From positions 1-64,000 of the forward strand of contig MPMV01000020.1 in assembly GCA_002238685.1 (NCBI GenBank): DNA of 64,000 bases, read 5' to 3'. Below, piece after piece: positions 4,300-20,281 of the stretch. This DNA is from a bacterium EF100-94H03 bin56 (GTDB lineage: Bacteria > Pseudomonadota > Alphaproteobacteria > SP197). The position numbers were made by a program, and so were the translations under genes. Positions within the stretch are counted from its first letter, which is position 1. Each line of letters begins with the position of its first letter. Below the pieces are notes generated by a model. The model had not been told where the DNA came from and ran no database searches. It was given only the letters and a program-made list of their open reading frames with translations.

Positions 4300-4610
4300 G
4301 GATCCTGTCCCCTGGCGCCGTCCTTCCTGCGGAACATCTCCAGCATGCGCTGGGTCACGGCAAAGCCGCCGAAGATGTTGATGGCCGCCAGGGTGACGGC
4401 GATGAAACCAAGGACCCCCGAGAGGTCCATTCCTGCCGGGCCGGCAGCGATCAGCGCACCGACGATGATGACGCTGGAAATCGCGTTGGTGACCGACATC
4501 AGGGGCGTATGGAGTGCCGGGGTCACGGCCCAGACAACGTGGTACCCGACAAAGATGGCGAGCACGAAGATCGTCAACCGGAAGAACAACGGATCGACAG
4601 CGGCTTCCAT
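4296..4610 (-). CDS. pntAB: NAD(P) transhydrogenase subunit alpha part 2
   Basis: 104 residues. Small membrane subunit (alpha-2) typical of the split three-subunit transhydrogenase of alphaproteobacteria. Three hydrophobic segments are visible ([52 protein letters not shown]), together with the family signature [14 protein letters not shown]. The ATG at 4610 gives the usual short N-terminus; a longer frame to 4664 only overlaps pntAA. It sits between pntAA (4-base gap) and pntB (4-base overlap). Confidence 0.95.
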
Positions 4611-4614
4611 GAAC

Positions 4615-5763
4615 TCAGCTCTCCTTCGTGTCGCAGAGCAGGGGGTGGACAAGCACGCCGTCACGCATCACGCACATTCCGCTGATGACCTCGTCTGCGT
4701 GGTCAAGCGCCAGGCGTCCGGCTGCGGTATCGATGAAGGGCGTGATGAGATTGAAGAGGTTGCGTGCATAGAAGTTCGAAGCATCGGCCGCCAGGCGTCC
4801 CGCCACGTTGGAGAATCCGACAATGGTGACGCCGTCGGCATCGACCACCTCGTCACGACGGCTGCCATCGCAATTGCCACCGTCCTCGACCGCGAGATCG
4901 ACGATGACCGAACCGGGTTTCATGTGCCGGACCATGGCGGCGGTCACGAGCCGCGGCGCCGGGCGCCCGGGGATGCGCGCGGTGGTGATGCAGATGTCGG
5001 CCTTCTTGAGGGCGCCCGCGATCACCTCACCCTGGCGGGCGAGAAAGGCATCATCCATCTCCCGCGCATAGCCTCCCCGGGTCTCGGCGTCATCGGCGCC
5101 GGGGACCTCCACGAAGCTGGCGCCGAGGCTCTCCACCTCCTCCTTGACGGCCGCCCGTACATCGAAGGCCTCGACCACGGCGCCAAGTCGCCGTGCGGTG
5201 GCAATGGCCTGGAGCCCCGCCACGCCGGCGCCAAGAACCAGCACCCGCGCCGGCGCGATGGTTCCGGCGGCAGTCATCATCATGGGCATGGCGCGGCCGA
5301 AGAACATGCAGGCGTCCAGCACCGCCTTGTAGCCGGCCAGGCTGGCCTGGGAGGTCAGGGCGTCCATGGACTGGGCGCGGCTGATTCTAGGGATCAGCTC
5401 CATGGCCAGAACGGTCAGCCGCCTGGCGGCGTATCCGGCATACTGTTCGCGGTCGACGAGGGGATTGATGAGACCGACGACGACACACCCTTCCGGGATG
5501 AGGACCACCTCGTCGATTTCGTCCGTCGTGACCGGTCGGCTGACCTTGAAGACGACGTCGGCACCTGCCAGTACATCTCCAGCATCGGCAGACATGATGG
5601 CGCCAGCCTGGAGAAATGTGTCATCCGTCCAGCCCGAGGCCTCGCCTGCTCCCGCTTCAATGGCAACATCGACACCCTGGTTCTTCAGCCTTTTGACCAT
5701 GTCCGGGGAGGCGGCAACCCTGGTCTCGCCGGGGTGACGCTCCCGCAATACTGCACACTTCAT
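4615..5763 (-). CDS. pntAA: NAD(P) transhydrogenase subunit alpha part 1
   Basis: 382 residues. Soluble NAD(H)-binding alpha-1 subunit. Family features: [20 protein letters not shown] at the N-terminus, the [20 protein letters not shown] segment, the dinucleotide loop [17 protein letters not shown] followed by EAFDVR, and [18 protein letters not shown]. The ATG at 5763 gives the standard [13 protein letters not shown] start; 11 extra upstream codons exist but are not needed. It is the first gene of the pnt operon. The upstream DUF3726 gene is 81 bases away on the same strand, so read-through from the long upstream operon is possible. Confidence 0.95.
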
Positions 5764-5844
5764 CGGCTGTCCGGATTGGTGGGTGACGGGCACCACATCT
5801 TGGCGAAGACACCGGACAATGTGAAGGGGAGCATGATGATGCTG

Positions 5845-6552
5845 TCAGGTCCCGTCGGCCGGCCCCGCGCCAGCGCTTCGCGACCGCTCGGTCGAGGGCA
5901 CCAGTGTCTTGTAGTAGTAGGCGAGAATGCCGGACCAGGCCGTGCTGTCGACAGCAATTCCGTGTTCCAGTGCCGCTTTTCTTCCCTCGTCGATGACGTG
6001 CAGGGGCGCGCAGTCGGGAACGGCGGCGCCCGGTGCATTCGCCATGATCGTCACTGCTGCCCGGTCGCAGGTGGCGCCTCCCTTAACCGCCACCTTTCCC
6101 CCGGCGACGTCGATGACCGTTCCGGCGCCTGCATGCATGACAAGGCGGGCGTGGCCCAAACCGGAAGCGGCCGCGGCGCCTGCAAGAAGAAGCGGGACAT
6201 CCACCTCGTCGACTTGGAGTGTCACAGGTTCGGCCGGCTCCATGGAGAGCCGGTCCATGATGACGGGGCCGGCGAAGATCGCCGACACCATCCGGCCTTC
6301 GCGGCAGGCGATCCGACCCTCCCGGATCACGAGGTCACCGCTGCTTTGACCCCCGGCCAGGGCATCGAGCGCCGGCAGCGCTGCCCGGGCCGGGTCCATG
6401 CGGATGAAGGCAAGCCACGATGCGGTGGCGGCAAACTCCTCGCAGATGCCGACGGGGGCGCCGGCGCCGGCGGCGGCACGGGCGAGGTGGAAGAGGACCT
6501 CGTTGAGCGAGAGAAGGTCACGAGACGCTGTCACGGACAGGGGAAGATCCAT
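5845..6552 (-). CDS. DUF3726 family protein
   Basis: 235 residues. The N-terminus (LSLNEVLFHLARAAAGAGAP then CEEFAATASWLAFIRMD) and the C-terminus (ILAYYYKTLVPSTERSRSAG) match the layout I know for the uncharacterised family DUF3726. No signal peptide or membrane segment and no catalytic motif is evident. Its ATG lies 22 bases inside the upstream 556-residue gene, which in turn overlaps a flavin monooxygenase gene by 4 bases, so the three are probably co-translated. Function unknown; the context suggests a partner of the monooxygenase pathway. Confidence 0.75.
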   Translation of the reverse strand: MDLPLSVTASRDLLSLNEVLFHLARAAAGAGAPVGICEEFAATASWLAFIRMDPARAALPALDALAGGQSSGDLVIREGRIACREGRMVSAIFAGPVIMDRLSMEPAEPVTLQVDEVDVPLLLAGAAAASGLGHARLVMHAGAGTVIDVAGGKVAVKGGATCDRAAVTIMANAPGAAVPDCAPLHVIDEGRKAALEHGIAVDSTAWSGILAYYYKTLVPSTERSRSAGAGPADGT

Positions 6553-8201
6553 TGCGGCTCCGTGCCACCGGTGATGTCGGCGGGGAGCGGTGCCCCCTGA
6601 TACATGGTCACGCGGGTCCAGAGGTCGGACTTGGGATCGAATCCGTTGGCGCCGAAGAAGGCCAGCTTGAAACGCAGGATGTCGACCGGACGCCGGTCAG
6701 CCGCCAGAAGATTGTCGCGAATTTCCGCGTAGGGCAGGTGGGCGAGGTGCTGGACGCGGCGCACCGTGCTTCGCCACTCCGGCGCCGTGACAAGAAAGTC
6801 GGCGACGCTGATCCGCGGATCGTGATCGAGGAGTCCCGCCCTTAGCATGGCGACATCGCGGCCGATGGCCACGGCCATTTCCAGGTCGGCACCGGGCTCG
6901 GTGTAGCGATCCCCCACGCGAGGTTCGAGCTTTTCCTGCGAGTAGTACCAGAATCGCTGGCGGGACTCCGGGGCGGCATGGTCGATGGCGAGAGCCCAGC
7001 CGTAGTTGTCGTCGATGAGGTTGATGAGGTCGCCCAGCGGCATGGCCGCCTTCAAGGCCGGCAGACCGCCGGAACTCATGGACTCGCACAGCCCGTCGAT
7101 CAGGGTGCCCTGGTGCTCAAGCAACAAGGCCACCACCATTTCCTGGCCTTCGAGGGAGAATCGCCGCGACGCGAGACGCCAGAGAGCATCAAAGGGCCGT
7201 TCGCCGTCGAGCCCGTCGTCGCACCACGTGTCGAGGCGGGCGAGATCGTCGCCGAGCCTCGAGATGCGTGCCGACTGCTCGGGATCGTCGACCGCCCAGG
7301 CAGCGACATGGCGCCGTGCGTCGTCCAGGAGTTCGCGGAACTCCGCGATGGTGTCGGGGGTGGCCCGTTCCACCTTCCGCACGCGCAAGAGGGCGTTTTC
7401 CCGCGCCATGACCCAGTTGTTGATCAACAGGGGGTGTTTGACAAGAAAGGGAGCCATGCCCAGGCCTGTGGCATTGCCGATACCGAGCGTTCTCGCAAGA
7501 TCTTCCGAGAGTTCCGCTGCTTTGAGCCCTGACCGTTGCCGGGCCATGTGATTGACGAGATCGACGCTCATCCAGCGGATGAGATAGACGGCGAGAAGTT
7601 CGGCCTGGAAGGGTCCCCGCAGTTCCTCCCGTCCGGCGATCCGGCCGCGGTCGGCGCAGCCGAATTTTCCGCTTCCGTAGACCGCTGTCGTACGCATCAG
7701 GTAACCCACGTCGCGCAGGAGATCGCGACAGGGCTGCCGGCCGCCGGCCAGGCTGTCCACCACGTGATCGAAGATCCTGCCGCTCCTGTTGGCCCGCGCC
7801 AGGACCAGTTCACTGGCCCTGAATCGCCCCGCCTCCTGACGGGGCGTATTCGCTTCGAGGCGTTCGATGTCGGCGGCGCCGGGGACACCGTCAAAGAGCG
7901 AGAATGTGGTGTCCCAGACGTTGGCGATGACCCGGTCGGTTCTCTCCCGGGGGTCGATGGACCCCGAAAACCCCACCAGGGTGTAGGTCCGGTGCCGGCC
8001 GTGGACGGCGTGGAGGGTGACACCTGTCCCGTTGTGATCAAGATCGAGGCGCATTCTCTCGAAACGCCAGCGTTCCCGGATCATGCGACGGACCAGCTGG
8101 CGCATGAAGCTCAGCCGTGTGGGGAAGGATGCTCCCATGCGTTCGAGGCGCATGACCTCGCCAGGAGGGCGCAGCTGCGGCACGTCTTCAGCCGCCGTCA
8201 T
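6531..8201 (-). CDS. conserved-looking protein of unknown function, 556 residues
   Basis: I do not recognise this family. The protein looks soluble, mixed alpha/beta and rich in Arg and Leu, with no signal peptide. An N-terminal basic helix region (FMRQLVRRMIRERWRFERMR) is followed by beta-rich text (TLHAVHGRHRTYTLVGFSGS). The middle is helical (AELLAVYLIRWMSVDLVNHM), and the C-terminal third includes LINLIDDNYGWALAIDHAAP and RFWYYSQEKLEPRVGD. It overlaps the upstream monooxygenase gene by ATGA and the downstream DUF3726 gene by 22 bases. Codon use looks like its neighbours, so it is a real gene. A role with the monooxygenase or DUF3726 is inferred from coupling only. Confidence 0.8.
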   Translation of the reverse strand: MTAAEDVPQLRPPGEVMRLERMGASFPTRLSFMRQLVRRMIRERWRFERMRLDLDHNGTGVTLHAVHGRHRTYTLVGFSGSIDPRERTDRVIANVWDTTFSLFDGVPGAADIERLEANTPRQEAGRFRASELVLARANRSGRIFDHVVDSLAGGRQPCRDLLRDVGYLMRTTAVYGSGKFGCADRGRIAGREELRGPFQAELLAVYLIRWMSVDLVNHMARQRSGLKAAELSEDLARTLGIGNATGLGMAPFLVKHPLLINNWVMARENALLRVRKVERATPDTIAEFRELLDDARRHVAAWAVDDPEQSARISRLGDDLARLDTWCDDGLDGERPFDALWRLASRRFSLEGQEMVVALLLEHQGTLIDGLCESMSSGGLPALKAAMPLGDLINLIDDNYGWALAIDHAAPESRQRFWYYSQEKLEPRVGDRYTEPGADLEMAVAIGRDVAMLRAGLLDHDPRISVADFLVTAPEWRSTVRRVQHLAHLPYAEIRDNLLAADRRPVDILRFKLAFFGANGFDPKSDLWTRVTMYQGAPLPADITGGTEPQWIFPCP

Positions 8202-9658
8202 CGCGTGCCGGTGAGTTCGAGTGTTCCGTCCTCGATCGGTGAGCGTCTCACCAGACGGACATCAAGAGCGTAGTCCTGGGTGTTGCGCCACGGATCGCGG
8301 TCCCCCTGCCGGGGCAGGAAGTCGAGGGCGCGCAGGATGTAGCCCGCCGGAAAGTCGTCGATCCACGGCCGTGGTGTCATGCACCGGTGTTCGTCGCCAA
8401 GCCGCGGTGTGGCCTGCCGCTTGCCGGTCCTGTCCATGGTGTTGATCAGGCGGCAGGCCCAGGCGGCTGTCAGGTCGGCGCGCAGGGTCCAGCTGGCATT
8501 GATGTAACCGAATGTCTGAACGAGATTGGGGACATCCGAGAGCATCATGCCCTTGTAGGACCAGTGTTCGGGCGGATGCACGGCGGCACCGTCAACGGAA
8601 AGCCTGACGCCGTTGAGGATCTTCATCCTCAGGCCCGTGGCAACAACGATGACGTCGGCGTCCACGGTCTCGCCGCCGCTGAGCTCCAGGCCTGCATGAG
8701 TGAACCTCCGAATGGTGTCGGTCCGGACGGTTGCGTGTCCGCTGTTGATGGCCTTGTAGAGATCATCGTCGGGAATGAGACACAGGCGCTGGTCCCAGGG
8801 GCCATAGCGGGGAGAGAAGTGCTTTGAGACATCAATGTCCGGTTTGAGCGCCCGGCGTACGAGACCGACGAGTTCGGCCTTCACGCTCTCCGGTTCGGTT
8901 CGGGTCCTGCGATAGAAATGCACATCCCGCCTGATGTTGCGCCACCGCGTGATGGCATAGGCCAGACGGTTCGGCAGGTATCTGGCGAGGAGGTTGGCGA
9001 GCCTGTCCACGCTCGGCCAGGACAACACGTACGTCGGGGAACGCTGGACCATGACGACGTGAGCGGCTCCGGCCATCGTCAGTGCCGGCACCAGGGTCAT
9101 GGCCGTTGCACCGGAACCGATGACGGCAAACCGTTTTTCCCGGCAATCCAGATCGTCCGGCCAGAACTGCGGATGCACGATGGTTCCGGAAAACCGGTCC
9201 TCCCCTTCCCAGGCGGGCCGATAGGGATCGTCGTAGTCATAGTATCCGCCGCACAGCAGCAGCATGTTGCACCTCAGACGAACGATCGTGTCCTCATGTT
9301 CCGCCTCGATGGTCCACAAGGCTTCGCTGCTCGACCACGATGCCGCCGTCACGCGATGGCCGAAGCGGACATGGCGCCTAATATCGAATTCGTCCGCCGT
9401 CTCGTTGATGTACCGCAGGATCGACGGGCCATCGGCAATGGCCCGGGCTTCCAGCCACGGCTTGAATGCAAAGCCCAGCGTGTGCATGTCGCTGTCGGAA
9501 CGCACGCCCGGATAGCGGAAGAGATCCCAGGTGCCACCGATGGTCTCCCGGCCCTCGAGAATGGTGAAACTCTTCGACGGACAGTGGCGCATAAGGTGCC
9601 ATGCACTGCCGACTCCGGAAAGCCCGGCGCCGACGATGACGGTATCGATCTGTTCCAT
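8198..9658 (-). CDS. flavin-containing monooxygenase, EthA-type Baeyer-Villiger
   Basis: 486 residues. FAD loop GAGLSGVG at residues 10-17 and GGTWDLFRYPG at 41-51, followed by RSDSDMHTLGF. Together with the second dinucleotide loop GSGATA at 181-186, this text is characteristic of the EthA/MymA branch of Baeyer-Villiger monooxygenases. The class fingerprint FSGTIVHPQFWP is at 156-167. Such enzymes use NADPH and O2 to turn ketones into esters, or oxidise S or N atoms. It is translationally coupled to the 556-residue gene downstream. Upstream lies an esterase 90 bases away, the expected partner for hydrolysing an ester product. Confidence 0.9.
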   Translation of the reverse strand: MEQIDTVIVGAGLSGVGSAWHLMRHCPSKSFTILEGRETIGGTWDLFRYPGVRSDSDMHTLGFAFKPWLEARAIADGPSILRYINETADEFDIRRHVRFGHRVTAASWSSSEALWTIEAEHEDTIVRLRCNMLLLCGGYYDYDDPYRPAWEGEDRFSGTIVHPQFWPDDLDCREKRFAVIGSGATAMTLVPALTMAGAAHVVMVQRSPTYVLSWPSVDRLANLLARYLPNRLAYAITRWRNIRRDVHFYRRTRTEPESVKAELVGLVRRALKPDIDVSKHFSPRYGPWDQRLCLIPDDDLYKAINSGHATVRTDTIRRFTHAGLELSGGETVDADVIVVATGLRMKILNGVRLSVDGAAVHPPEHWSYKGMMLSDVPNLVQTFGYINASWTLRADLTAAWACRLINTMDRTGKRQATPRLGDEHRCMTPRPWIDDFPAGYILRALDFLPRQGDRDPWRNTQDYALDVRLVRRSPIEDGTLELTGTR

Positions 9659-9748
9659 CGGCTCGCCCTGCTTGATCCGCCAAGATTAGAGGTTGCGGTC
9701 CGGTCGGCAAACACCGCTTCGGGCGCGGCCGCCGTCATCTGGCGGGAG

Positions 9749-10678
9749 TCACTGCCGCATAAGGGCCCGGGAGACAGAGCGGCCGCATGCGGCGAGCGCC
9801 GCGTCGGCTTCTTCGCGCACCACTCCGCGCAAGAGAAGAAACCCGTGGACCATGTCCTCGTACTCGACGAGTTCGACGGGAACGCCCGCTGCCTCGAGTT
9901 TTCCCGCATAGGCCACACCTTCGTCTCGCAACGGGTCGAAACCGCAGACCATGACGGTGGCGGGTGGCTGATCGGAGAAGTCGGTGGCCCTCAGAGGCGA
10001 GCACAACGGACTGTCGAAATCCGTTTCGTCGCGGGTGTAGGACGCGACATAGAATGGCATGAGGTCGAGAAAGAAGCCCTTCGAGTAGAGGCGGAAAGAC
10101 TCGGTATCGGCCTTCATGTCGACATTGGGATAGAGAAGCAGCTGGTGGCGGAAGCAGGGTCCTTGCCGTTCCCTCGCGAGACGGATCACGCCGGCGGAGA
10201 AATTGCCACCGGCGCTGTCTCCGCCAATGCCGAGCCGTTCGTCATCGATGCCGAATTCGGCGGAACGAGAAACGATTCGGCACGCTGCGGCGTAGCAGTC
10301 CTCGAGGGGCTCGGGGAACTTCGCTTCCGGTGAAAGCCGGTACTCGACGGAAAAGACCACTGCGCCGGCGTTCGAGGCCAGAAGGCGGCAGATCGAGTCG
10401 TGGGTTTCGATCGACCCTCTGACATAGCCGCCGCCATGAAGGAAGATCAGGGCGGGGCGACGATCCCCCGGCGATGGTTCGTAGACACGAACCGGTATCG
10501 TCCCGGTTCCACCAGCCAGGACGACGTCCGTCGCCCGCCAGATGGTCGGCCTGGGGGCATCGAGCGCGGCGAGTTCCCTGCGTAGCGCTTCGCGAGATGC
10601 CGGCAGATCCCCCAGGAGCGAATCGGCTTCGCCGGAGGCCGTTGCGAGGAACATCGCGAGATTGGGATGAATCGCCAT
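9749..10678 (-). CDS. alpha/beta hydrolase, hormone-sensitive-lipase type esterase
   Basis: 309 residues. The oxyanion motif HGGG is at 81-84, the nucleophile elbow GDSAGG at 153-158 (Ser155), and the likely acid and base are Asp248 (GFDPLRDEG) and His278 (DMVHGF). No signal peptide, so cytoplasmic. It lies between two Baeyer-Villiger-type monooxygenase genes on the same strand, which suggests it hydrolyses the ester made by one of them. The substrate is not known. Confidence 0.9.
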   Translation of the reverse strand: MAIHPNLAMFLATASGEADSLLGDLPASREALRRELAALDAPRPTIWRATDVVLAGGTGTIPVRVYEPSPGDRRPALIFLHGGGYVRGSIETHDSICRLLASNAGAVVFSVEYRLSPEAKFPEPLEDCYAAACRIVSRSAEFGIDDERLGIGGDSAGGNFSAGVIRLARERQGPCFRHQLLLYPNVDMKADTESFRLYSKGFFLDLMPFYVASYTRDETDFDSPLCSPLRATDFSDQPPATVMVCGFDPLRDEGVAYAGKLEAAGVPVELVEYEDMVHGFLLLRGVVREEADAALAACGRSVSRALMRQ

Positions 10679-10712
10679 GCGGCCTCCGGTTGCACTCGCT
10701 CCAGGGACCGGA

Positions 10713-12374
10713 TCAGTTCAGGTTGAATCCGGTATAGCCGTTATCCATGACATTGCGGCAGATATCGGAATAGTCCTTGTGTCCCGCGGTGAACGCCAGG
10801 AAGCGGCGTGGCTTGCCCGCTACATTCGCGCCTATCCACCAGGAATCGGCCTGCGGATAGAGCGTGTCCTCGATGAGTTCCGTAACCCCGCTCGTCCAGT
10901 TGTCCTGGGCATGCCGGTCGGCCTCGATGCGCCTGTGGTTCCTCCGGCGCATGTAACCGATACAGTCCGCGATCCATTCGACATGCAGTTCGAACGAGGC
11001 GAACATGTTCGTGAAGACGGAGGGGCTCCCCGGTCCGGTAATGGTGAAGAGGTTGGGGAATCCGGACATGGCGAGTCCCAGGTAGGTCGACGCTCCGTCC
11101 TTCCACTCATCGGCCAGTTTCCTGCCGTCGCGGCCGGTGATGCCGGCTGCCAGCAGGGCGCCGGTCATCGCATCGAAACCGGTGGCGACGATCACGACAT
11201 CGAAGGCGTGTTCCCTGTCGCCGGCAACGAGCCCATCGTCCGTGAACTCCCTGACAGGGGTCTTCCTGGTGTCCACCAGGTGGACATTGGGCCGGTTGTA
11301 AATCTCGTAGTATCCGGTATCCACGCAAGTGCGCTTCGTTCCAATCGGGAAATGCATCGAACACAGTGTGTCCGCCGTCTCCGGATCCCGCACGATCAAG
11401 CGTATCTTGTTCCTGACGAACTCCGCGATCTCGAAATTCGTTTCGGCGTTCAGGGTGGTATCGGAAAACGCCATGTTGAAGAGAAGGCCGCCGTGGTTCC
11501 ACCGGGACTCGAGCTGCGCGTGGCGGTCCTCGGTTGAAAGGTTGCAGCCCTTCCGGAAGGTCGCAGGATTGGTGTCAAGGATGATGCCCATGAATGACTG
11601 TCTGCGCTTCGCCATCAGGTCCTCGAAGTTCTCCCTGAACACGGTGCGGTCCGCGTCCGTCAACGGCCTGTTCCAGGCCGGTATGCTGTAGTGTGCGCCA
11701 CGCTGGAACACGTGGAGACTCCCGGCCACCGGCGAGACGGCTGTTGCCGCCTGTATTCCGGACGCGCCGGAACCGATGACGGCGACGCGCTTGCCGTCGA
11801 AGGAGACATCGTGATGGGGCCACAGGCCCGTATGGTACATTTCTCCGCGAAACCGCTCCTCGCCCTTGAAATGCGGCTTTTTCGGTACCGAGAGAGGGCC
11901 GGTCGCCATCACGACGAACTGCGCAAGGACGACCTCGCCGGATGTGGTTTCCAAGCGCCAGACATCGTCGGTGTCGATGAAATCGACGGAACTGATCTTC
12001 GAGTTGAAGCGGATGAAGGGCCGCAGTCCGTAACGCTCGCAGACGTGTCGGGCATACTCCAGAATCTCGGGCTGGGCGGCGTATCGTTCCGTCCAGTCCC
12101 AGTCCTCGGCGAGCTTCCGGTCGAAGGAATAGGAGTAGAACAGGCTTTCGACATCGCATCTGGCGCCCGGATACCGGTTCCAGTACCACGTTCCGCCGAC
12201 ATCGTCTCCGGTTTCGAACGCGACTGCCGCAAGGCCCATCCGGCGCGCCTTGTGAAGCATGTAGAGGCCCGAAAACCCGGCGCCCACGACTGCGACATCG
12301 AAGGTTTCGAGCGACCCGGCGTCCGTCTTAGCCGCAGTCTCGTTCTTGCGATTCAAGTCACTCGTCCGGCTCAT
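10713..12374 (-). CDS. flavin-containing monooxygenase, cyclohexanone-monooxygenase type
   Basis: 553 residues from the ATG at 12374. The FAD loop GAGFSGLY is at 31-38. GGTWYWNRYPGARCDVES at about 60-77 and the Baeyer-Villiger fingerprint FRGEMYHTGLWPH at 175-187 place it in the CHMO/PAMO branch, distinct from the EthA-like enzyme nearby. NADPH loop GSGASGIQAA follows. It probably converts a ketone to an ester or lactone. The start overlaps the 3' end of the alcohol dehydrogenase gene by 17 bases; the frame extends to 12416 but the extra residues have no family look. Confidence 0.9.
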   Translation of the reverse strand: MSRTSDLNRKNETAAKTDAGSLETFDVAVVGAGFSGLYMLHKARRMGLAAVAFETGDDVGGTWYWNRYPGARCDVESLFYSYSFDRKLAEDWDWTERYAAQPEILEYARHVCERYGLRPFIRFNSKISSVDFIDTDDVWRLETTSGEVVLAQFVVMATGPLSVPKKPHFKGEERFRGEMYHTGLWPHHDVSFDGKRVAVIGSGASGIQAATAVSPVAGSLHVFQRGAHYSIPAWNRPLTDADRTVFRENFEDLMAKRRQSFMGIILDTNPATFRKGCNLSTEDRHAQLESRWNHGGLLFNMAFSDTTLNAETNFEIAEFVRNKIRLIVRDPETADTLCSMHFPIGTKRTCVDTGYYEIYNRPNVHLVDTRKTPVREFTDDGLVAGDREHAFDVVIVATGFDAMTGALLAAGITGRDGRKLADEWKDGASTYLGLAMSGFPNLFTITGPGSPSVFTNMFASFELHVEWIADCIGYMRRRNHRRIEADRHAQDNWTSGVTELIEDTLYPQADSWWIGANVAGKPRRFLAFTAGHKDYSDICRNVMDNGYTGFNLN

Positions 12375-13413
12375 GGAATCGGTCGACAATGGTGATTCCC
12401 GAATCCCGGAACGCACTCATGCGGGGAAGGAACTGCGACACCTTGTCGAGCGGTATCCTCCGGGCGATGGTCCGTTCGGGTTGCAGCCTGTTCTGTTCGA
12501 TCATCCTGATGAGCTTCGGGTAGAGGTGAGGTGGCATGCAGTAGCTCCCCACGATCTCGAGTTCGTTCCGGACCACCGCGCCCATTGGAATGGCAGCATG
12601 GTAGTCGTCTTCCAGCATGAGCCCGATCTGGACATGCCGGCCCTGCTTTCTGAGGCAATTGATCGAATTGCGACAGGTGAGAGTGCTGCCAAGGGCGTCG
12701 ACCGACACGTGTGCGCCTCCCGACGTCAGCTCCCTGATGGCACCGGCAATGTCGGATTCGCTCCTCGCGTTCAGGGTTGCCGATGCGCCCGCCGATCGCG
12801 CAAGGGCCAGTTTCTCCTCCGTGATGTCGACCGCGATGGCGTTCGCGCCGAGCGCATCGGCGATCATGATCGCGGCAAGGCCGATGCCGCCTGCTCCATG
12901 GACTGCGACCCAGTCGCCGGGCTGAACATTCGCCCGCATTCCGATGGCGCGGAAGGATGTGGAGAACCGGCACCCCAATCCCGCGGCCACCTCGAATGAA
13001 AGCGATTCGGGCACATGGACGAGATTGAAGTCGGCTCGGTCGACGGATACATACTCCGCATGGGAACCCCATCGGCGAAAGCCCGGTTGAAACTGGTCGT
13101 CGCAAAGATGGTGGTTGCCGCGGGCGCAGGATGCGCAGACTCCACAGACCCCCATCGGCGGCATGGTGACGCGATCGCCGGTCTTCCAGTTGCTGACATC
13201 CGCCCCGGCCTCGCAGACAATTCCCGCGAACTCGTGGCCGGGAACATGAGGTAGCCTGACATCGGGATCGTGACCCGACCAGGCATGCCAGTCGCTCCGG
13301 CACAGTCCGCTTGCCCTGACCTTCACGATCACGCCGTCCCGGGCAGGTTCCGGATCGGGAACGTTCCTGACCGTGACCGGTCCACCGAAAGTCTCGTATA
13401 CCGCTGCGCGCAT
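12358..13413 (-). CDS. zinc-dependent alcohol dehydrogenase (MDR family)
   Basis: 351 residues. Catalytic zinc ligands Cys38 (SGLCRSDWH) and His60-Glu61 (VPGHE); structural zinc cysteines 90, 93, 96 and 104 (CGVCASC...HHLC); nucleotide loop GAGGIG in the middle. It oxidises an alcohol to an aldehyde or ketone with NAD(P). The order dehydrogenase - Baeyer-Villiger monooxygenase - esterase is the classic enzyme set for degrading a secondary alcohol, which supports a pathway role. Its stop overlaps the monooxygenase start by 17 bases, and it begins six bases after the glutamine-synthetase-like gene ends. Confidence 0.92.
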   Translation of the reverse strand: MRAAVYETFGGPVTVRNVPDPEPARDGVIVKVRASGLCRSDWHAWSGHDPDVRLPHVPGHEFAGIVCEAGADVSNWKTGDRVTMPPMGVCGVCASCARGNHHLCDDQFQPGFRRWGSHAEYVSVDRADFNLVHVPESLSFEVAAGLGCRFSTSFRAIGMRANVQPGDWVAVHGAGGIGLAAIMIADALGANAIAVDITEEKLALARSAGASATLNARSESDIAGAIRELTSGGAHVSVDALGSTLTCRNSINCLRKQGRHVQIGLMLEDDYHAAIPMGAVVRNELEIVGSYCMPPHLYPKLIRMIEQNRLQPERTIARRIPLDKVSQFLPRMSAFRDSGITIVDRFHEPDE

Positions 13414-13419
13414 TTTTCT

Positions 13420-14712
13420 TCAGAAACTCTCAAGATAGCGTTCGGTCTCGATGTCCGTGACAACGTCGGCAACGAAATCCCGCTCCCGTTCAGCCTGGTT
13501 CACGAGAATTTCGAGCCGGTCGGCTCCCAGAAGGTCGAGCAGGAAGCCCGAGTCCCGTGCCTTGACGATGGCGACGTCAATGGTCGTCGGCAACACATCG
13601 TAGCCTGTCGCGACATAGGCATTTCCGACATGGGGCGGGGTCGGTTCGAGGCCCTGTTCGATCCCGTCGAGTCCTGCGGCAATCTGCGAGGCGAACAGAT
13701 AATAGGGATTGCAGTCGGCTGACCCGTCGCGCACTTCGATCCGAAGGGTCTGCGGAGAATGGCCGATGATGCGTATCCCGGTCGACCGGTTGTCGTATCC
13801 CCACGAATTGTTGACAGGGCTGAAACTCTCGGGACGCCGGCGCCGGTAGGCGTTCGGGGTTGTCGAGCCGATCAGCGCCGTTTCCGCCATTCTCATCTGT
13901 ATCCCTGCGAGATAGGAGAGCCCCGTTCGGGAAAGCGCCCCGCCTTCGTCGTGGAAGACGGCCTTGCCGTCCTGCCAGAGCGAGTGGTGAAGGTGAAATC
14001 CGCTGCCGGACTCGCCGGTGATGGGCTTGGCCATGAAGGTGGCGAGATAGCCTTGCGAATGGGCGATCTGTTTCACCAGGCCCCTGAAGGCGACAGTCCT
14101 GTCGGCCGTTTCCAGGGCCTCGCCGTACTCGATGTTCACCTCGACCTGACCCGCGGCATACTCCGGATTCGACTGCTCGACCGGGATGCCGACGTCGTTG
14201 AGATGACGCCGTATCGGTCCGACGACATGTTCGAGCTCGGCGGCCCGTGTCAGGTTGTAGACCTGAATCCCCCGGTCCCGCGGACGCTTGGTCTCCGGAT
14301 CCAGGAGATAGAATTCGAGCTCGCTGCCGATCTTGACCTCGAACCCCATCGCCGAAGCCCGTTCGAGAACGTCGAGGAGAACGCCGCGTGGATCGATCGG
14401 AACGGGCCTGTGATCCGCATCCTCGACTCGTCCCATGCAGAAGGCGACGCCCTCCTCCCAGGGCAGGCGCCAGACCTTGCCGAAAGGAAACATGTGGCAG
14501 TCGTGATAGCCGGTTTCCATGTTGCAGTAGGGGGTGTCCCAGACGTCGCATGTCATGTCGATCGCGAAGATGGCGGCCGACAGGGCAATGCCACTTTCAC
14601 GAACGACCGGCCAACGCGATGCCGGTACCCGCTTTCCCCTGAGAATCCCGTTGAGGTCGCCTGCGCCCATGGAGACGGTATGGATGCCTTCAGGCAGTAC
14701 AAATTGGCCCAC
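13420..14712 (-). CDS. glutamine synthetase family ligase, PuuA/GlnA-like
   Basis: 430 residues from a GTG at 14712 preceded by GAGGGAGAAGGC. The frame is open far upstream but only overlaps the permease genes there. Family motifs: GSELEFYLLD (metal Glu), ESNP-like EQSNPEYAAGQVEVNIEYG, HLHHSLW after GSGF, and the ATP-phosphate stretch RRRPESFSPVNNSWGYDNRS. A 430-residue protein beside a polyamine-type importer fits the gamma-glutamylpolyamine synthetase branch better than the housekeeping enzyme. It would ligate glutamate to an imported amine. The precise substrate is inferred. Confidence 0.9.
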   Translation of the reverse strand: MGQFVLPEGIHTVSMGAGDLNGILRGKRVPASRWPVVRESGIALSAAIFAIDMTCDVWDTPYCNMETGYHDCHMFPFGKVWRLPWEEGVAFCMGRVEDADHRPVPIDPRGVLLDVLERASAMGFEVKIGSELEFYLLDPETKRPRDRGIQVYNLTRAAELEHVVGPIRRHLNDVGIPVEQSNPEYAAGQVEVNIEYGEALETADRTVAFRGLVKQIAHSQGYLATFMAKPITGESGSGFHLHHSLWQDGKAVFHDEGGALSRTGLSYLAGIQMRMAETALIGSTTPNAYRRRRPESFSPVNNSWGYDNRSTGIRIIGHSPQTLRIEVRDGSADCNPYYLFASQIAAGLDGIEQGLEPTPPHVGNAYVATGYDVLPTTIDVAIVKARDSGFLLDLLGADRLEILVNQAERERDFVADVVTDIETERYLESF

Positions 14713-14753
14713 TTCGCCTTCTCCCTCTTCAAAGGCCCTGCAACGCCGACCGC

Positions 14754-15614
14754 TCAACGTATCTCTGGCTTCCTGGAAAGGATGTAGATCGACACCCCGA
14801 CGATCAGCATCGAGGCAAAGATGACACAGGAACCGATCGCATTGATCTCCGGGGTGATGCCCTGGCGCATCATGGACCAGATGTACATCGGAAGCGTGTT
14901 GGTGTTCCCGTTGATGAAATAGGTCAGCGCAAGCTCGTCGAACGACACGATCAGGATGATCATGCAGGAGCCGATCAGCGTCGTCCTGATGTTGGGCAGC
15001 GTCACGTACCAGAATGTCTCGAGCGGCGTCGCTCCGAGATCGGCCGACGCCTCCTCGATGCGGCGGTCGAAGTAGGTCAGGCGCGCAAAGAGATTCGCCA
15101 CCACGATCGATGACATGAGTGTTCCATGGCCGATCATGATGGTGTGAAGCCCCAGACTGACGCCCCAGAAAGTAAAGTAGTTGAGAAGGCATATGCCCAG
15201 CGTCAGGGCCGGAAGGGAGATCGGCATCAGCACGATCCGCTGCAGCGCGACCTTTCCGGGGAAATCCCAGCGCATCAGCGCGAAAGCCGTGGGGATGCCC
15301 ACGGCATTGGCGATGATGACGGCCGCGAAGGCGACAACGATGCTGTTGAAGAGCGCCTCCATCATGAAGGCGTTCTGGAAGGCCTTTTCGTACCACGAGA
15401 ACGTGAAGCCGGTCAGCGGAAACACGGTCAGGTCGTTCGTGTTGAAACTGAACACCATCAGGACGATCAGGGGCAGATAGAGGAAGACGAGCGAACAGCA
15501 TGCCAGGATCATCACGAAAGAGGTCGTCGCCGATGTCGGCTTCTTCCTCCTTTCCGGGAGAATCGAACGGGCTCCCGGAACCGAAACCCCCGTCATTGTC
15601 GAAACAAGAGCCAT
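14754..15614 (-). CDS. ABC transporter permease, PotC-like
   Basis: 286 residues with about six hydrophobic segments (first FVMILACCSLVFLYLPLIVL). The permease EAA loop reads EEASADLGATPLETFWYVTL. It is the second permease of a spermidine/putrescine-type importer, moving substrate across the inner membrane. It starts nine bases after the PotB-like gene ends and is followed 41 bases later by the glutamine-synthetase-like gene. Confidence 0.92.
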   Translation of the reverse strand: MALVSTMTGVSVPGARSILPERRKKPTSATTSFVMILACCSLVFLYLPLIVLMVFSFNTNDLTVFPLTGFTFSWYEKAFQNAFMMEALFNSIVVAFAAVIIANAVGIPTAFALMRWDFPGKVALQRIVLMPISLPALTLGICLLNYFTFWGVSLGLHTIMIGHGTLMSSIVVANLFARLTYFDRRIEEASADLGATPLETFWYVTLPNIRTTLIGSCMIILIVSFDELALTYFINGNTNTLPMYIWSMMRQGITPEINAIGSCVIFASMLIVGVSIYILSRKPEIR

Positions 15615-15623
15615 TCCGATCTC

Positions 15624-16493
15624 CTATTCGATGTTCACCTTGCCAACCCGTTCGGCCTGGTTGGAAGCGCTGAGAAGGATCACGAAGATCACGAGCAGAA
15701 CGACGGTGATGGCCGCGCCGAGCGGCCAGTTGAGCGCCATGCCGTACTGGGTCAGCACGACGTTCGCGATCATGTTGGCGGACGGGCCGCCTACGAGGAT
15801 CGGCGACACGAAGTCTCCCACGGCAAGGCAGAACGCCAGTGTCCAGCCGGCAATGATGCCGGGAATGGCCAGGCGCAGTGTCACGTTCAGGAACGTATGG
15901 AACGAGTTGGCGCCGAGGTCGCGGGATGCCTCTATGAGGCTTCTCGGAATCTTGTCCAGGGACGAATAGATGGGCAGCATCATCAACGGCATGCAGATAT
16001 AGCCGATAGTGATGACCATGGCGTACTGGTTGTAGAGGAAGAACATGACCGGCTCGTCGACGATGCCCAGCCACAGCAAGGCCGAATTCAACACGCCTTC
16101 CGTGCCGAGGATTGTCTTCCAGGTATAGGAACGAAGAACGTAGGAGACCCACAGCGGTATCAGCATCCCCATGTAGAGGAGCAGTTTGACGGCCCTGCTC
16201 TCCACCTTGAAGACGATGAAATAGACCAGCGGGAAACCGATCAGGAACGAGAACAAACAGCTCATCAACGCGATTCTGACGCTCCGGGCAATCACCACGA
16301 CATACTGGTTGTTGGTCAGGAGTTCCTCGTAGTTGCCGAACTGGAAATCCGGACGGAAGGTGGGAAATTCCTGGGTCCAGAAACTCATGGAGGCCATGAC
16401 ACCGAGGGACCCCAGGACGATTCCGCCCCACCACAGGGCGGGAAGCGAGAAGACAGCGAAAAAGTCGAGGGCGGTCCTCAGCCGGCGGCTCAT
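15624..16493 (-). CDS. ABC transporter permease, PotB-like
   Basis: 289 residues with six predicted membrane segments (first FFAVFSLPALWWGGIVLGSL). The EAA loop reads IEASRDLGANSFHTFLNVTL. First permease of the polyamine-type importer. Three bases separate its ATG from the stop of the ATPase gene. Confidence 0.92.
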   Translation of the reverse strand: MSRRLRTALDFFAVFSLPALWWGGIVLGSLGVMASMSFWTQEFPTFRPDFQFGNYEELLTNNQYVVVIARSVRIALMSCLFSFLIGFPLVYFIVFKVESRAVKLLLYMGMLIPLWVSYVLRSYTWKTILGTEGVLNSALLWLGIVDEPVMFFLYNQYAMVITIGYICMPLMMLPIYSSLDKIPRSLIEASRDLGANSFHTFLNVTLRLAIPGIIAGWTLAFCLAVGDFVSPILVGGPSANMIANVVLTQYGMALNWPLGAAITVVLLVIFVILLSASNQAERVGKVNIE

Positions 16494-16496
16494 CGT

Positions 16497-17600
16497 TCAG
16501 GCCTCGCCTGAAGCATCCACGTGACCGTCGAACAAAACGACCGAATCGGGATCGACATGAAGTTCGATCCGATCGCCGACCTTGGGAATCTCCCCCCGTG
16601 CGCCTTTCCATGACAGGGGCGTGATCATCGACAGCGGGGCCTTTGCTCCGACATCGACAAGGATCTGCATTGCTTCTCCCCGGTAGAAACTCTCGGTCAC
16701 GCGGCCGCTGAAACTGCTCGCCGTGATCTCCCGCCGATGAAGGCCGATCCGCTCGGGCCTGATGGACATGGTGATGGGTTTGCCGACCTCGGCGCTCCGG
16801 CCGTTTGACGCCACCTCAAGGCTGGCATCGCCGAAAGCGATTCGCAGGGAACCGCCGGTCGCCGACTCAACCCTGCCGGGAACAAGGTTCGATGCACCCA
16901 GGAAACTCGCGACATAGGGTGTTGCGGGATGGTTGTAGAGGTCTTCCGGCGACCCCGACTCCACCACGACACCATCTTTCATCACGATGATCTCGTCGGA
17001 CATTACGAGAGCTTCCGCCTGATCGTGTGTCACCATGAGGAAGGTCAGGCCCGCTCTCTGCTGCAGTTCCCTAAGCTCGATCTGCATCGTGGCGCGAAGC
17101 TCGGCGTCGAGCGCGGAAAGCGGTTCATCGAGAAGGAGGACCTTGGGGTGCCGTACTAGGGCCCGAGCCAGGGCCACACGCTGCCTCTGGCCGATGGAAA
17201 GTTCATGGGGTTTCGACCGGGCCTTGTGACCCAGCTGGATCATGTCCAGCGCTTTTTTCAGTTCCTTCGCCGCATCGAGTTTCCTGCCGTCGCCGAAACG
17301 CAGGCCGTAGCCGATGTTCTCCTCGACCGTCATGTGCGGGAACAGCGCAAAGTCCTGGAACATTACGTTGAGCTTGCGGGTGTGGGGCGGGAAATCTGTG
17401 ATGTCCTCGCCGTCCAGGAGAATGTGGCCGCGATCCGGATATTCGAAACCACCGATCATGCGCAGGGTCGTCGTCTTGCCGCAACCTGACGGCCCCAGCA
17501 TCGTCACGTATCTGCCGTGCTTGACACTCAGGCTGAGATTGTCGACCGCGGTCAGAGTGCCGAAGGTCTTCGTGACCTGCTGCAGTTCGATGATGTCCAC
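16497..17600 (-). CDS. ABC transporter ATP-binding protein, PotA-like
   Basis: 367 residues from a GTG at 17600, chosen because GAGGAG sits six bases upstream and it gives the usual MDIIELQQVTKTFG start. Walker A GPSGCGKTT, signature LSIGQRQRVALARAL, Walker B VLLLDEPLSALD, H-loop THD, and a C-terminal TOBE-like region (SIRPERIGLHRRE onward), as in PotA. It energises the two permeases downstream. Confidence 0.93.
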   Translation of the reverse strand: MDIIELQQVTKTFGTLTAVDNLSLSVKHGRYVTMLGPSGCGKTTTLRMIGGFEYPDRGHILLDGEDITDFPPHTRKLNVMFQDFALFPHMTVEENIGYGLRFGDGRKLDAAKELKKALDMIQLGHKARSKPHELSIGQRQRVALARALVRHPKVLLLDEPLSALDAELRATMQIELRELQQRAGLTFLMVTHDQAEALVMSDEIIVMKDGVVVESGSPEDLYNHPATPYVASFLGASNLVPGRVESATGGSLRIAFGDASLEVASNGRSAEVGKPITMSIRPERIGLHRREITASSFSGRVTESFYRGEAMQILVDVGAKAPLSMITPLSWKGARGEIPKVGDRIELHVDPDSVVLFDGHVDASGEA

Positions 17601-17626
17601 GCCTGGCTCCTCGATCGCGTATCGGC

Positions 17627-17660
17627 CCCGGGCAGGCGATGAAAATGTCTCCTGTCCGGG
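17627..17660 (-). promoter_or_regulatory. stem-loop between binding-protein and ATPase genes
   Basis: Two 10-base arms (17627-17636 and 17651-17660) pair with one G-T wobble around a 14-base loop. They lie 36 bases after the potD-like stop and 26 bases before the potA-like start. There is no T-run. Such hairpins after a binding-protein gene commonly stabilise that part of the mRNA or lower downstream expression, so the binding protein is made in excess. The function here is inferred. Confidence 0.5.
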
Positions 17661-17695
17661 ACCGGATTCCGCAAACGCAAGCCGTGGACGGCGGG

Positions 17696-18760
17696 CTACT
17701 CCGCCGCCTTCACGGCATTCCACACTTCAATCATCTTCGCGGGCCGGGCGGGTTCGCGCCACAGCACGAGGCTATCGATGTATTCGGGCTGATGCTGATG
17801 ACGGCCGGTAAACTCCTCCTCCGACATGCAGGATTCCACCAGTGGACTGGCTGCCGAGAAACCCGAGAACAGGGACATGCCGCACTGCCCCTCGGGGCTC
17901 GCCGCAAAGTTGAGCCACTGGTAAACGCACTCCATGTCCTGGGCGTCCGTCGTGATCTGCCAGCCGTCCATCCAGCCGTCAGCGAGTTCCTTGGGCAGGT
18001 ATTCCACCATGGGAATTCCCTTGGCCTGCAGTTCGGCGACCTGGTATCCGCCCCACGTGTTCGAAATCCAGATCTCGCCGTTGGCGGCGAGGTTGATGTG
18101 ATCGCCCGCCTGAGACCAGTAGGTCCGCAACAGCTTCTTCTGTTCAATGAGTTTCTGCTGGACTTCGGCCAGTTGTTCGTCCGAGAGATCGAAGACGTTG
18201 ACATCGGTGCCGAAGAGATAGCGCGCAACGGGATAGATGTTCGACTTGTCATCCCACAGGCTGATCCTGCCTGCATACTTCTCGTCGAAGATCACGGCAA
18301 TCGAATCAAGTTCCTCGTCCACCTTGTCTGTTCGATACATCATCGGGATCGATCCCCACGCGTTGGGCTGCGCAATGACCGTTCCGTCTTCCAAGGTTAT
18401 GCCCGGGTTGTTCTGAAGGTTCTCATAGAGATTCTGGAAGTGCTCCAGCTTGCCGGTGTCGATGGGCGCGATCTTCCCCAGTTTCCAGAGGATTGTCGTG
18501 GTATCGACTGACGGTGAGACCAGGTCGTACCGGTCGCCGGCGGCGATCTTCGCGATGATCTCGTCGTTCGAGCCGACCAGAGTGGGTTTGAGTTCACAGC
18601 CCGTCGCTTCCTGCCAGTCAGCCGTAAAGCTCTCGTCGGCATAGGAGACCCATGTCAGGAGACTGAGTTCGCCGGCATTTGCCTGGACTGCGGCAAGGCT
18701 GGTGGCGGCACCGAGCGCGCATGCTGCAGCAAGCTGCTTGAGTTTGGTATTCCTTGACAT
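17696..18760 (-). CDS. periplasmic polyamine-type ABC substrate-binding protein, PotD-like
   Basis: 354 residues from the ATG at 18760. A signal peptide is clear (MSRNTKLKQLAAACALGA, ending near VQANA before GELSLLTW). The mature protein has PotD/PotF-family text: ELSLLTWVSYADESF, AAGDRYDLVSPSVDTT, NAWGSIPMMYRTDKVDE and CVYQWLNFAASPE. First gene of the importer operon. The exact ligand (putrescine, spermidine or another amine) cannot be read off. Confidence 0.92.
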   Translation of the reverse strand: MSRNTKLKQLAAACALGAATSLAAVQANAGELSLLTWVSYADESFTADWQEATGCELKPTLVGSNDEIIAKIAAGDRYDLVSPSVDTTTILWKLGKIAPIDTGKLEHFQNLYENLQNNPGITLEDGTVIAQPNAWGSIPMMYRTDKVDEELDSIAVIFDEKYAGRISLWDDKSNIYPVARYLFGTDVNVFDLSDEQLAEVQQKLIEQKKLLRTYWSQAGDHINLAANGEIWISNTWGGYQVAELQAKGIPMVEYLPKELADGWMDGWQITTDAQDMECVYQWLNFAASPEGQCGMSLFSGFSAASPLVESCMSEEEFTGRHQHQPEYIDSLVLWREPARPAKMIEVWNAVKAAE

Positions 18761-18784
18761 GATCCACCCCGTCTTCCGTTGTTG

Positions 18785-18836
18785 AAAAAGTGCCGTCTGT
18801 CCCTGCACGGCGGGGCGCGGAGTCGATCCCTCCGCG
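18785..18836 (-). terminator. probable terminator of the MFS gene
   Basis: Read on the minus strand, a perfect 7-bp hairpin (CGCGGAG, 7-base loop, CTCCGCG; 18836-18816) is followed by a 5-bp hairpin (GCCGT/ACGGC; 18811-18792) and then a short T5 run (18789-18785). This lies between the MFS stop and the potD-like start and probably separates their transcripts. Confidence 0.55.
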
Positions 18837-18871
18837 TTCGAAGCACAGCTTACTTCGGGACTACATACCGA

Positions 18872-20104
18872 TCAACCGCGCCGCGGGTTCGACACGGCTC
18901 GCCTTCGCCACCATGTCACCAGCGGCAGGGGCAAGAGAAGGAGATGGAACAAGAACACGGCGCCGGCGAGACCGTGAGGGTCCCACAGATCCATGGCGAG
19001 CCCGCCGAGTGCGGGACCCAGGATGGAGCCCGAACAGAACATCAGTCCGAAGACCGTTGTCGCCGATGGCAGGTCCGCGCCACGGAACCGGTCGCCTACC
19101 AGCATGATCGCGATGCCGTAGTGCGCCGCCCGGACGCCTCCGAAGATCATGAGATAGCTGATGAGAAGGACTCCGCCGATATCGTCGATCCATGGAATCC
19201 CCGGTGTCCCGACACTGCGCATTTCCGGGATCCAGGGCAGGAGCAGAGACGCCAGCGCGCCTGCCGCGGTGCAAACGGCAAGCAGCAGCGTCCGGTCGAA
19301 GCGCGATGCGAGCCAGGCAAGCAGGAAGGTCATGGCTGCACCGCCCCATCCCTGCCATCCCAGCATGCGCGCGGAGAGCGCCTCGTCCATGCCGAGACGC
19401 AATCCGTAGACCGCCAGCAACGCCATGAAGGTGCTTCCGATCATGCCGAACATGAGGTTCGCCACCATGGGTACCGGCGCCAGGCGGACATACTGGTGAA
19501 GACTTGCTGATGGCCGTTCTCCGGGCGCGATCCGAATTCCCCGCGCGACCACGAGGGGGAGGATGATAAAGCCGATCATGATCGCCGCGGTCACGAACGG
19601 TGTAGCACCCTGCGAGCCCACTTCCGCGAGTATGAAGGGACCCGCCGCAAATCCCACGGCAACCGCAAACATGAAGACACTGATCGTGCGGCCGCGATTC
19701 CGGTCGTCGGATTCGTGGTTGAGCCAGGTCTCGCCGGTCGTCCACATCATGGACTGTGCGGCCCCCAGGGCCAGGCGCAGTGGAAACCAGATCCAGACGT
19801 CGATGAAGAGCGCCATAAGAGCGATACTGGCCAGCGCCAGCACCGCACCGATCATCATGAGCCGCGCGGGACCCAGGCGCCGCATGAGACCGGGCAGCAC
19901 CGGCATGATGACGAAGATGCCGGCCATCTGCATGGCGCCGCTGAGGCCGATCAGTGCGCCGCCGACTCCCCGGTCTTCGAGAACGAAGGAAAGAAACTGG
20001 CCGGAGAAACCATAGAAGGTGGCAATGGCGGCCATGCTCGCGATGACGGCTGCAAGCCCCGTGACACGCCGGCTCCGTGCGGTGGATCCGGCGTCCATAT
20101 CCAT
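18872..20104 (-). CDS. MFS transporter
   Basis: 410 residues from the ATG at 20104, which has a GGCGGAG ribosome site. About twelve hydrophobic segments in two halves, starting VTGLAAVIASMAAIATFYGFS. The loop text LMRRLGPARLMMIGAVLA after the second or third segment is typical of the family. It is transcribed in the same direction as the polyamine operon but separated by a likely terminator. The substrate is unknown. Confidence 0.88.
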   Translation of the reverse strand: MDMDAGSTARSRRVTGLAAVIASMAAIATFYGFSGQFLSFVLEDRGVGGALIGLSGAMQMAGIFVIMPVLPGLMRRLGPARLMMIGAVLALASIALMALFIDVWIWFPLRLALGAAQSMMWTTGETWLNHESDDRNRGRTISVFMFAVAVGFAAGPFILAEVGSQGATPFVTAAIMIGFIILPLVVARGIRIAPGERPSASLHQYVRLAPVPMVANLMFGMIGSTFMALLAVYGLRLGMDEALSARMLGWQGWGGAAMTFLLAWLASRFDRTLLLAVCTAAGALASLLLPWIPEMRSVGTPGIPWIDDIGGVLLISYLMIFGGVRAAHYGIAIMLVGDRFRGADLPSATTVFGLMFCSGSILGPALGGLAMDLWDPHGLAGAVFLFHLLLLPLPLVTWWRRRAVSNPRRG

Positions 20105-20281
20105 CACAGCTCCGCCGGGCAGAGTGTCCGGTTGACCTGGCACGTATCAACCTGCAGGGAGCGCATGGACGAAGCACCGGGAGCAATCCGGCAATGTGTG
20201 ATCTCCGTGAACATCAAGGCAGAATGGAAGTTGTGTCCAGAGTTTTCTGCAATTTCGTCATGGCAGGCGGTTGTGTGGAGA

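Follow-up and report, generated by a model that had tools for sequence, protein, structure and literature searches.

N-methylated ring compounds, homarine among them, are plentiful carriers of carbon and nitrogen in the sea. The homarine catabolic operon is reportedly named homABCDER and is said to yield N-methylglutamate and glutamate, and the ring of trigonelline is reportedly opened by the oxygenase/reductase TgnAB. Here we analyse a stretch of 64,000 nucleotides (the window) from contig MPMV01000020.1 of the alphaproteobacterium EF100-94H03 bin56, with the focus on three neighbouring genes, encoding an EthA-like flavin monooxygenase (FMO), a protein of 556 residues (the 556 protein) and a DUF3726-like protein. 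The original prediction, made from this DNA alone, took the three for a fixed unit of one oxygenase with two uncharacterised partners. Excerpts of PMC13390433 describe homarine as ubiquitous, name Mgd as a participant in its catabolism and place the regulator gene tmaR often adjacent to mgd. The homarine passages of PMC12817926, PMC9038784 and PMC12093977 name none of the genes treated here, and searches of the literature on homarine, DUF3726 and trigonelline ring cleavage found no description of their functions.

We suggest that the 556 protein and DUF3726 work as one two-subunit enzyme, which in its usual setting would carry out the committed ring opening of an N-methylpyridinium carboxylate, namely homarine, and that the monooxygenase is an optional, clade-specific addition. 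We consider this reading as a whole evenly balanced between right and wrong. Its parts differ in strength: that the two proteins belong to one shared enzyme is held with moderate to high confidence, and the reaction assigned to them with a probability of about one half.

The 556 protein and DUF3726 form a gene pair

The 556 protein has at least 585 relatives in the genome collection. Our locus survey covers the best 80 of these, which come from Alpha- and Gammaproteobacteria (including SUP05/Thioglobus), 'Deltaproteobacteria' and Acidimicrobiales. A DUF3726 gene adjoins the 556 gene on the same strand in 79 of the 80 loci, and in the one exception (L083) the contig stops 184 bases past the 556 gene. 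Among 337 genomes drawn evenly from the window's class, whose hit lists were compared by eye, the 556 family occurs in 47, DUF3726 in 45 and both in 44 (Fisher p 2e-50). The three genomes with a 556 protein and no detected DUF3726 are G088, where the contig edge lies about 230 bases downstream, G071, where a C-terminal extension of the 556 protein aligns to DUF3726 (prob 32, E 4.7e-4), and G136, where the end of the neighbouring protein bears the DUF3726 C-terminal motif (prob 69.1, E 4.4e-5). The sole genome with DUF3726 only, G089, gave a weak match (E 6e-4). The two proteins are encoded by a single open reading frame (ORF) on a complete Mesorhizobium plasmid (L031) and on a contig of a metagenome-assembled genome (L105), and a third fusion, with a diverged C-terminal partner, is the one of G071 (L129). 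We thus regard the pair as real and robust with very high confidence. The original prediction had counted both proteins into its fixed unit and would have failed had they rarely co-occurred elsewhere; the opposite was found, and this part of it holds.

The window genome (G000) has three sister genomes of the same genus, G001, G006 and G007. The 556 and DUF3726 genes are separated by other genes in two of them, lying about 12 kb apart in G007 and on different contigs in G001, and both genes are retained. Production of the proteins in step, as originally proposed, is likely in the window; the two sister genomes show that it is not required. The intervening genes in G001 and G007 include a phosphonate-type ABC importer (named by eye). 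In G007 the intervening 12 kb (L117 10360 to L156 2421) hold an importer resembling the 2-aminoethylphosphonate type together with aminotransferase-like and dehydrogenase-like genes, and the short sequence preceding the DUF3726 start is preserved.

A second, more distant subfamily (II) of the 556 protein, at 30-36% identity, is found on Sinorhizobium pSymB, in Aminobacter, Natrinema and several relatives, with a small partner gene close by. In S. meliloti and Aminobacter the partner gene comes immediately after that of the 556 protein, and its product can be aligned with DUF3726 along its length (hhalign prob 79.5, E 1.5e-5). The G014 partner sits after an M19 dipeptidase gene (prob 43.7, E 2.4e-4), and the partner in the haloarchaeon Natrinema aligns weakly (prob 15.9, E 1.6e-3); four unrelated control proteins gave prob 0.06-0.17 and E 0.35-0.77. 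The Natrinema partner also matches the Ldh_2 family PF02615 (E 4.8e-9, 36.2 bits, cut-off 38.8), so it may be a link between DUF3726 and Ldh_2. On the Natrinema versiforme plasmid pNVE500 (L151 10091-12621) the 556 homologue and its Ldh_2-like partner of 317 residues have an aldehyde dehydrogenase and a BCCT transporter nearby. On S. meliloti pSymB (L154 9223-21167) the order is IclR, 556, partner, dipeptidase, Pot-type importer, aminotransferase and two RidA genes.

Sequence and predicted structure of the two proteins

The 556 protein has no match in Pfam or NCBIfam. Pfam scans of 76 family members gave scattered weak matches, none of them in more than four members, and no Luciferase-like oxygenase or flavin reductase match appeared in Pfam for either the 556 protein or DUF3726, which may still have a flavin role. 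Profile searches of the PDB were made with A2, the alignment of 76 rows of the 556 protein (L037, L043, L061, L083 and L105 left out), and with A3, the alignment of 72 rows of DUF3726 (the same five and L053, L054, L058 and L109 left out); both returned chance-level matches only. A scan of viral contigs found no relative of the 556 protein. Its model is confident (predicted local distance difference test, pLDDT, 91.2; predicted template-modelling score, pTM, 0.92) and has no fold match in the PDB (Foldseek best E 0.2; VIA-align best Z 4.0); a new fold is not proven by this, since fold searches with models longer than 400 residues can miss single domains. A TenA-type chain at rank 2 (Z 3.8) was considered as a fold relative and rejected as too weak. 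The statement of the original prediction that the 556 protein fits no known family is thus borne out by Pfam, NCBIfam and PDB sequence and fold searches. Its conserved residues, taken from A2 and not from a wider column count of 101 rows in which one row (L128) was out of frame, are H218 and H256, present in 96-97% of the 76 rows and the only two histidine columns above 90%, and the invariant E268, E354, E362 and many arginines.

DUF3726 is less isolated. The window protein scores just below the gathering score of PF12525 (21.6 bits, E=2e-4, against 22.1), and 71 of the 72 A3 members, the window protein included, match this family at E <= 0.01. The A3 model, which was built with the window protein included, recovers it at E 3.7e-46. 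The structure model (pLDDT 89.6, pTM 0.86) finds fifteen Ldh_2 entries of the PDB with VIA-align at Z 11.2-15.0, the next unrelated chain being at 4.4, and Ldh_2 enzymes with Foldseek at a best E of 2.9e-5. A faint sequence link to the Ldh_2 of the cluster itself extends over the N-terminal 53 columns (prob 26.5, E 7e-4), and the window protein gives no match to PF02615 at E <= 1, where only DUF3726 is listed. Across A3 no histidine is conserved, the best column having 17 of 72; in the Ldh_2 proteins from the gene clusters of the pair (alignment A6) four histidine columns stand at 95%. The catalytic-type histidine of the Ldh_2 SHG motif is present in A6 and has no conserved counterpart in A3. 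DUF3726 is hence predicted to have the fold of Ldh_2 (malate/L-lactate dehydrogenase type 2) without its conserved histidines. The original prediction had given neither protein a function; for DUF3726 this has to be amended, since its predicted fold takes it out of the wholly uncharacterised. The two proteins also drift at different rates, with identities to the window protein of 16-42% for DUF3726 (A3) and 46-63% for the 556 protein (A2).

A proposed ring-opening reaction and its alternatives

The usual neighbours of the pair in the 80 loci are M19 dipeptidase (71), aldehyde dehydrogenase (39), LysR (35) and Ldh_2 reductase (31), followed by BCCT (18), a betaine-type ABC ATPase (10) and a soxA/Mgd-like alpha subunit (5). 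Ruegeria TM1040 and Phaeobacter have the order sarcosine-oxidase-like delta/alpha/gamma, helix-turn-helix regulator, LysR, aldehyde dehydrogenase, M19, BCCT, 556, DUF3726, Ldh_2. The alpha subunit passes the generic soxA subfamily model only, hence the label Mgd is our suggestion. The aldehyde dehydrogenase is nearest to the models of 2,5-dioxovalerate and alpha-ketoglutarate-semialdehyde dehydrogenase, below their curated cut-offs. Their carbon skeleton is the one that the homarine scheme needs, which speaks for the scheme.

Conversion of homarine to N-methylglutamate requires the loss of ring C6, and therefore C5-C6 cleavage, oxidation, deformylation and imine reduction. Aldehyde dehydrogenase, M19 and Ldh_2 can account for the last three of these steps, which leaves the first to the pair; we suggest the following sequence.

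Step 1: The 556 protein and DUF3726 would cleave the C5-C6 bond of homarine (N-methylpicolinate) with the formation of an N-formyl aldehyde. The 556 protein would hold the active site, and DUF3726, a shortened protein of Ldh_2 fold that lacks the conserved histidines, would serve as a structural subunit or as one that handles NAD(P)H.

Step 2: The N-formyl aldehyde would be oxidised by the aldehyde dehydrogenase.

Step 3: The M19 'dipeptidase' would take off the formyl group.

Step 4: The Ldh_2 reductase would turn the resulting imine/enamine into N-methylglutamate.

Step 5: N-methylglutamate dehydrogenase would convert N-methylglutamate to glutamate.

For the window we suggest that the pair has moved into a different cluster of 12 genes, where the Abhydrolase_3 hydrolase may stand in for M19, and that a related N-heterocycle is the probable substrate.

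Several points weigh against this assignment. We arrived at the reaction of the pair by elimination and with the reported ring opening of trigonelline as a model, rather than from the sequence, and the 556 protein contains no recognisable cofactor motif. M19 is missing from five of the 62 loci that have 4 kb or more of sequence on each side, and of all 80 loci only 5 contain the soxA/Mgd-like gene and 39 the aldehyde dehydrogenase. Within the window, aldehyde dehydrogenase, M19 and Ldh_2 were not found around the pair; because these usual partners are missing, the homarine scheme cannot simply be transferred to it.

Other explanations keep different parts of the evidence. If all three proteins made up one enzyme, the monooxygenase would hydroxylate and the 556 protein and DUF3726 would be its dedicated soluble partners, as the close gene overlap in the window and the FMO-556 order conserved in four genomes at 87-89% identity would suit. 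However, the FMO gene adjoins the 556 gene in none of the 80 other loci. FMO matches (E <= 1e-40) occur in 10 of the 16 genomes searched; they lie beside the 556 gene only in the window genome and its three sisters (4 of 16, one genus), whereas in G002, G004, G005, G008, G009 and G019 (6 of 16) the two are separate. The FMO orthologues of G002, G004, G005, G009 and G019 stand alone. Such a three-protein enzyme is thus very improbable: the neighbourhood survey led us to drop the EthA-centred trio, the monooxygenase is a local, clade-specific addition and not a fixed partner, and the original prediction fails where it includes the oxygenase in the fixed unit. The pair might also perform a non-oxygenative step, such as hydration or reduction of the pyridinium ring or a lyase reaction, after which the ring opens spontaneously or via M19. 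The 556 protein has no oxygenase motif and only two strongly conserved histidine columns, and the DUF3726 fold resembles NAD(P)H-dependent Ldh_2 reductases; yet DUF3726 lacks the Ldh_2 histidines, and the lost carbon together with the type of aldehyde dehydrogenase would better suit an oxidative C5-C6 cleavage. We hold this route to be unlikely, although it deserves more weight than the trio.

DUF3726 could instead be a pseudo-enzyme that helps the 556 protein to mature or regulates it, and that is no subunit of the working enzyme. Its fast drift relative to the 556 protein and its lack of conserved histidines are in line with this, but it is fused to the 556 protein in three loci and nearly always adjacent, and therefore a stable 1:1 subunit fits better; we rate the maturation or regulatory role slightly below the non-oxygenative route. 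The link to homarine might, in turn, be a coincidence, with the pair acting on another substrate class such as other betaines or amines. Betaine-type ABC or BCCT transporters, an MttB-type methyltransferase and polyamine-type importers are near various members, and subfamily II has IclR, RidA, aminotransferase and Pot-type importers as neighbours. Against this, the Mgd-like linkage, the aldehyde dehydrogenase type and Ldh_2 agree with N-methylglutamate as the end product, and the role of Mgd in homarine breakdown is described in excerpts of PMC13390433. Another substrate class appears to us about as unlikely as the non-oxygenative route. Ring opening of homarine by a two-subunit enzyme is hence the reading we prefer.

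The cluster of the window and its relation to known systems

The 556 gene, the DUF3726 gene and the FMO gene end a same-strand run of 12 genes, which begins with an MFS transporter and spans 20143..5845 (Table 1). All three minus-strand ORFs of the original prediction are present in the ORF list, and the 4-base overlap between the monooxygenase and 556 genes is confirmed as ATGA. The 22-base overlap claimed between the 556 and DUF3726 genes applies if translation starts at ATG 6552; from the in-frame GTG 6534 it becomes 4 bases (GTGA). Since GTG 6534 aligns with the ATG starts of the DUF3726 genes in the sister genomes, the true overlap is probably 4 and not 22 bases, with a product of 229 residues. 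A start giving exactly 4 bases is available in 59 of 77 loci (L083, L105 and L037 left out), which is an upper bound as the script takes the start nearest to this value. A scan for promoters and terminators gave no excess over shuffled sequence, thus the transcription units are proposed from gene order alone.

Table 1. Genes of the same-strand run that carries the pair in the window
Feature	Coordinates	Strand	Remarks
Flavin monooxygenase (FMO; EthA-like)	9658..8198	minus	486 aa; ORF list
556-aa protein	8201..6531	minus	ORF list; predicted catalytic candidate of the pair
DUF3726-like protein	6552..5845	minus	235 aa from ATG 6552; probably 229 aa from GTG 6534
Abhydrolase_3 esterase/lipase-type hydrolase	9749..10678	minus	family also beside the pair in G136
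Second monooxygenase, phenylacetone-monooxygenase (PAMO)-like Baeyer-Villiger monooxygenase (BVMO)	10713..12416	minus	not seen in three sister clusters
Zinc-type alcohol dehydrogenase	12358..13413	minus	not seen in three sister clusters
Glutamine-synthetase-like ligase	13420..14790	minus	kept in three sister clusters
ABC transporter permease, PotC-like	14754..15614	minus	sister gene order
ABC transporter permease, PotB-like	15624..16493	minus	sister gene order
ABC transporter ATPase, PotA-like	16497..17639	minus	longer GTG-start ORF reaches 17723; sister gene order
Solute-binding protein, PotD-like	17696..18808	minus	sister gene order
MFS transporter	18872..20143	minus	present in sister clusters too

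The four window-type 556 proteins form one clade of the tree (support 100), with L036 and L039 as the nearest members (98). This clade lies within a set of 13 rows (99) which includes M19-linked members from SUP05, Magnetovibrio and Deltaproteobacteria; the tree was made with a quick method, and the long branches G_L020 and II_Natr are unsure. The nesting of the window clade among M19-linked relatives makes an M19-linked cluster the probable source of the pair. Three other contigs of the window genome carry related pieces: on C71 (L131) the N-terminus of a 556 protein stands beside a transposase ORF (IS110-like by eye), on C74 (L158) a 35-residue DUF3726 end directly precedes an intact canonical Ldh_2 gene, and on C42 (L136) an M19 gene with 68% identity to that of Ruegeria adjoins a transposase ORF. 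Together these pieces are what is left of a second 556/DUF3726 copy of the canonical kind. Neither G001 nor G006 has a close M19 orthologue, and no canonical Ldh_2 as strong as the C74 match was found in G001, G006 or G007. A window-type cluster can thus exist without M19 and canonical Ldh_2, as in G001 and G006.

The ligase, the Pot-type importer and the MFS transporter are common to the three sister clusters. At the thresholds used, none of the 80 other loci contains the FMO, the Abhydrolase_3 hydrolase, the glutamine-synthetase-like ligase, the alcohol dehydrogenase or the PAMO-like gene. Among the four genomes, only that of the window has the zinc alcohol dehydrogenase and the PAMO-like BVMO (10713-13413) within the cluster, the latter matching 1w4x at E 1.7e-156; their presence beside the hydrolase suggests that a ring compound takes an alcohol-ketone-ester route. 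G136 has an Abhydrolase_3 gene after the pair, with 34% identity to the window hydrolase. L036 (3414-9142), the nearest 556 relative outside the genus, has an arginase-family gene in the usual position of M19 and a hydantoinase-B-like gene (by eye) upstream. The arginase-family gene of L036 and the Abhydrolase_3 gene of G136 make the hydrolase beside the pair seem exchangeable. Downstream of DUF3726 lie PntA/PntB-like NAD(P) transhydrogenase genes (by eye, 2914-5796), which might serve NADPH supply. They also follow DUF3726 in G001, G006 and G007, even where the 556 gene is split off.

If the pair opens the rings of homarine and similar compounds, the key step of their flux in the sea would be carried out by a protein for which no relative was found in sequence or solved structure. 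DUF3726 would receive its first assignment, as an Ldh_2-fold partner subunit, and the system would extend to a haloarchaeon and soil rhizobia. The 556 and DUF3726 genes would then serve as a marker pair for further N-heterocycle pathways. More tentatively, and with somewhat less than an even chance, the pair could be a new class of two-subunit ring-opening enzymes, made of a new-fold catalytic subunit and a pseudo-dehydrogenase, that different N-heterocycle pathways of bacteria and haloarchaea use as an exchangeable front-end module. In that case the window would hold a re-plumbed version, in which monooxygenases and an alpha/beta-hydrolase replace the downstream enzymes.

The DUF3726 model shares its fold with the Ldh_2 family (PF02615: YiaK, AllD, DpkA, sulfolactate dehydrogenase), but compared with the solved members it is about 100 residues shorter, has 7-13% identity and lacks the conserved histidines. 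The FMO has the Rossmann-type flavin/NAD domains of EthA and the type I BVMOs (Pfam matches FMO-like and NAD_binding_8; residues 2-269 match BVMO structures), and its translation contains FSGTIVHPQFWP, which we take to fit the BVMO fingerprint FxGxxxHxxxWP; 'EthA-like' is a label only. Unlike the conserved members of the pair, it is an optional neighbour at the level of one genus. The proposed likeness to TgnAB is one of reaction type: the C5-C6 bond of an N-methylpyridinium carboxylate would be cleaved, and an aldehyde dehydrogenase and a hydrolase would act next. The 556 protein of the window has no Pfam match of any kind. Like the homarine operon as reported, the canonical loci have five catabolic genes and a regulator (LysR, aldehyde dehydrogenase, M19, 556, DUF3726, Ldh_2), and those of Ruegeria TM1040 and Phaeobacter have Mgd-like genes nearby. 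As far as we have seen, the pair is known in the literature only via this operon, and the window holds it in a new genomic layout. Unlike the operon, the window copy has no aldehyde dehydrogenase, M19 or Ldh_2 nearby, and it is accompanied by the FMO, the Abhydrolase_3 hydrolase, the glutamine-synthetase-like ligase, the alcohol dehydrogenase, the second BVMO and a Pot-type importer.

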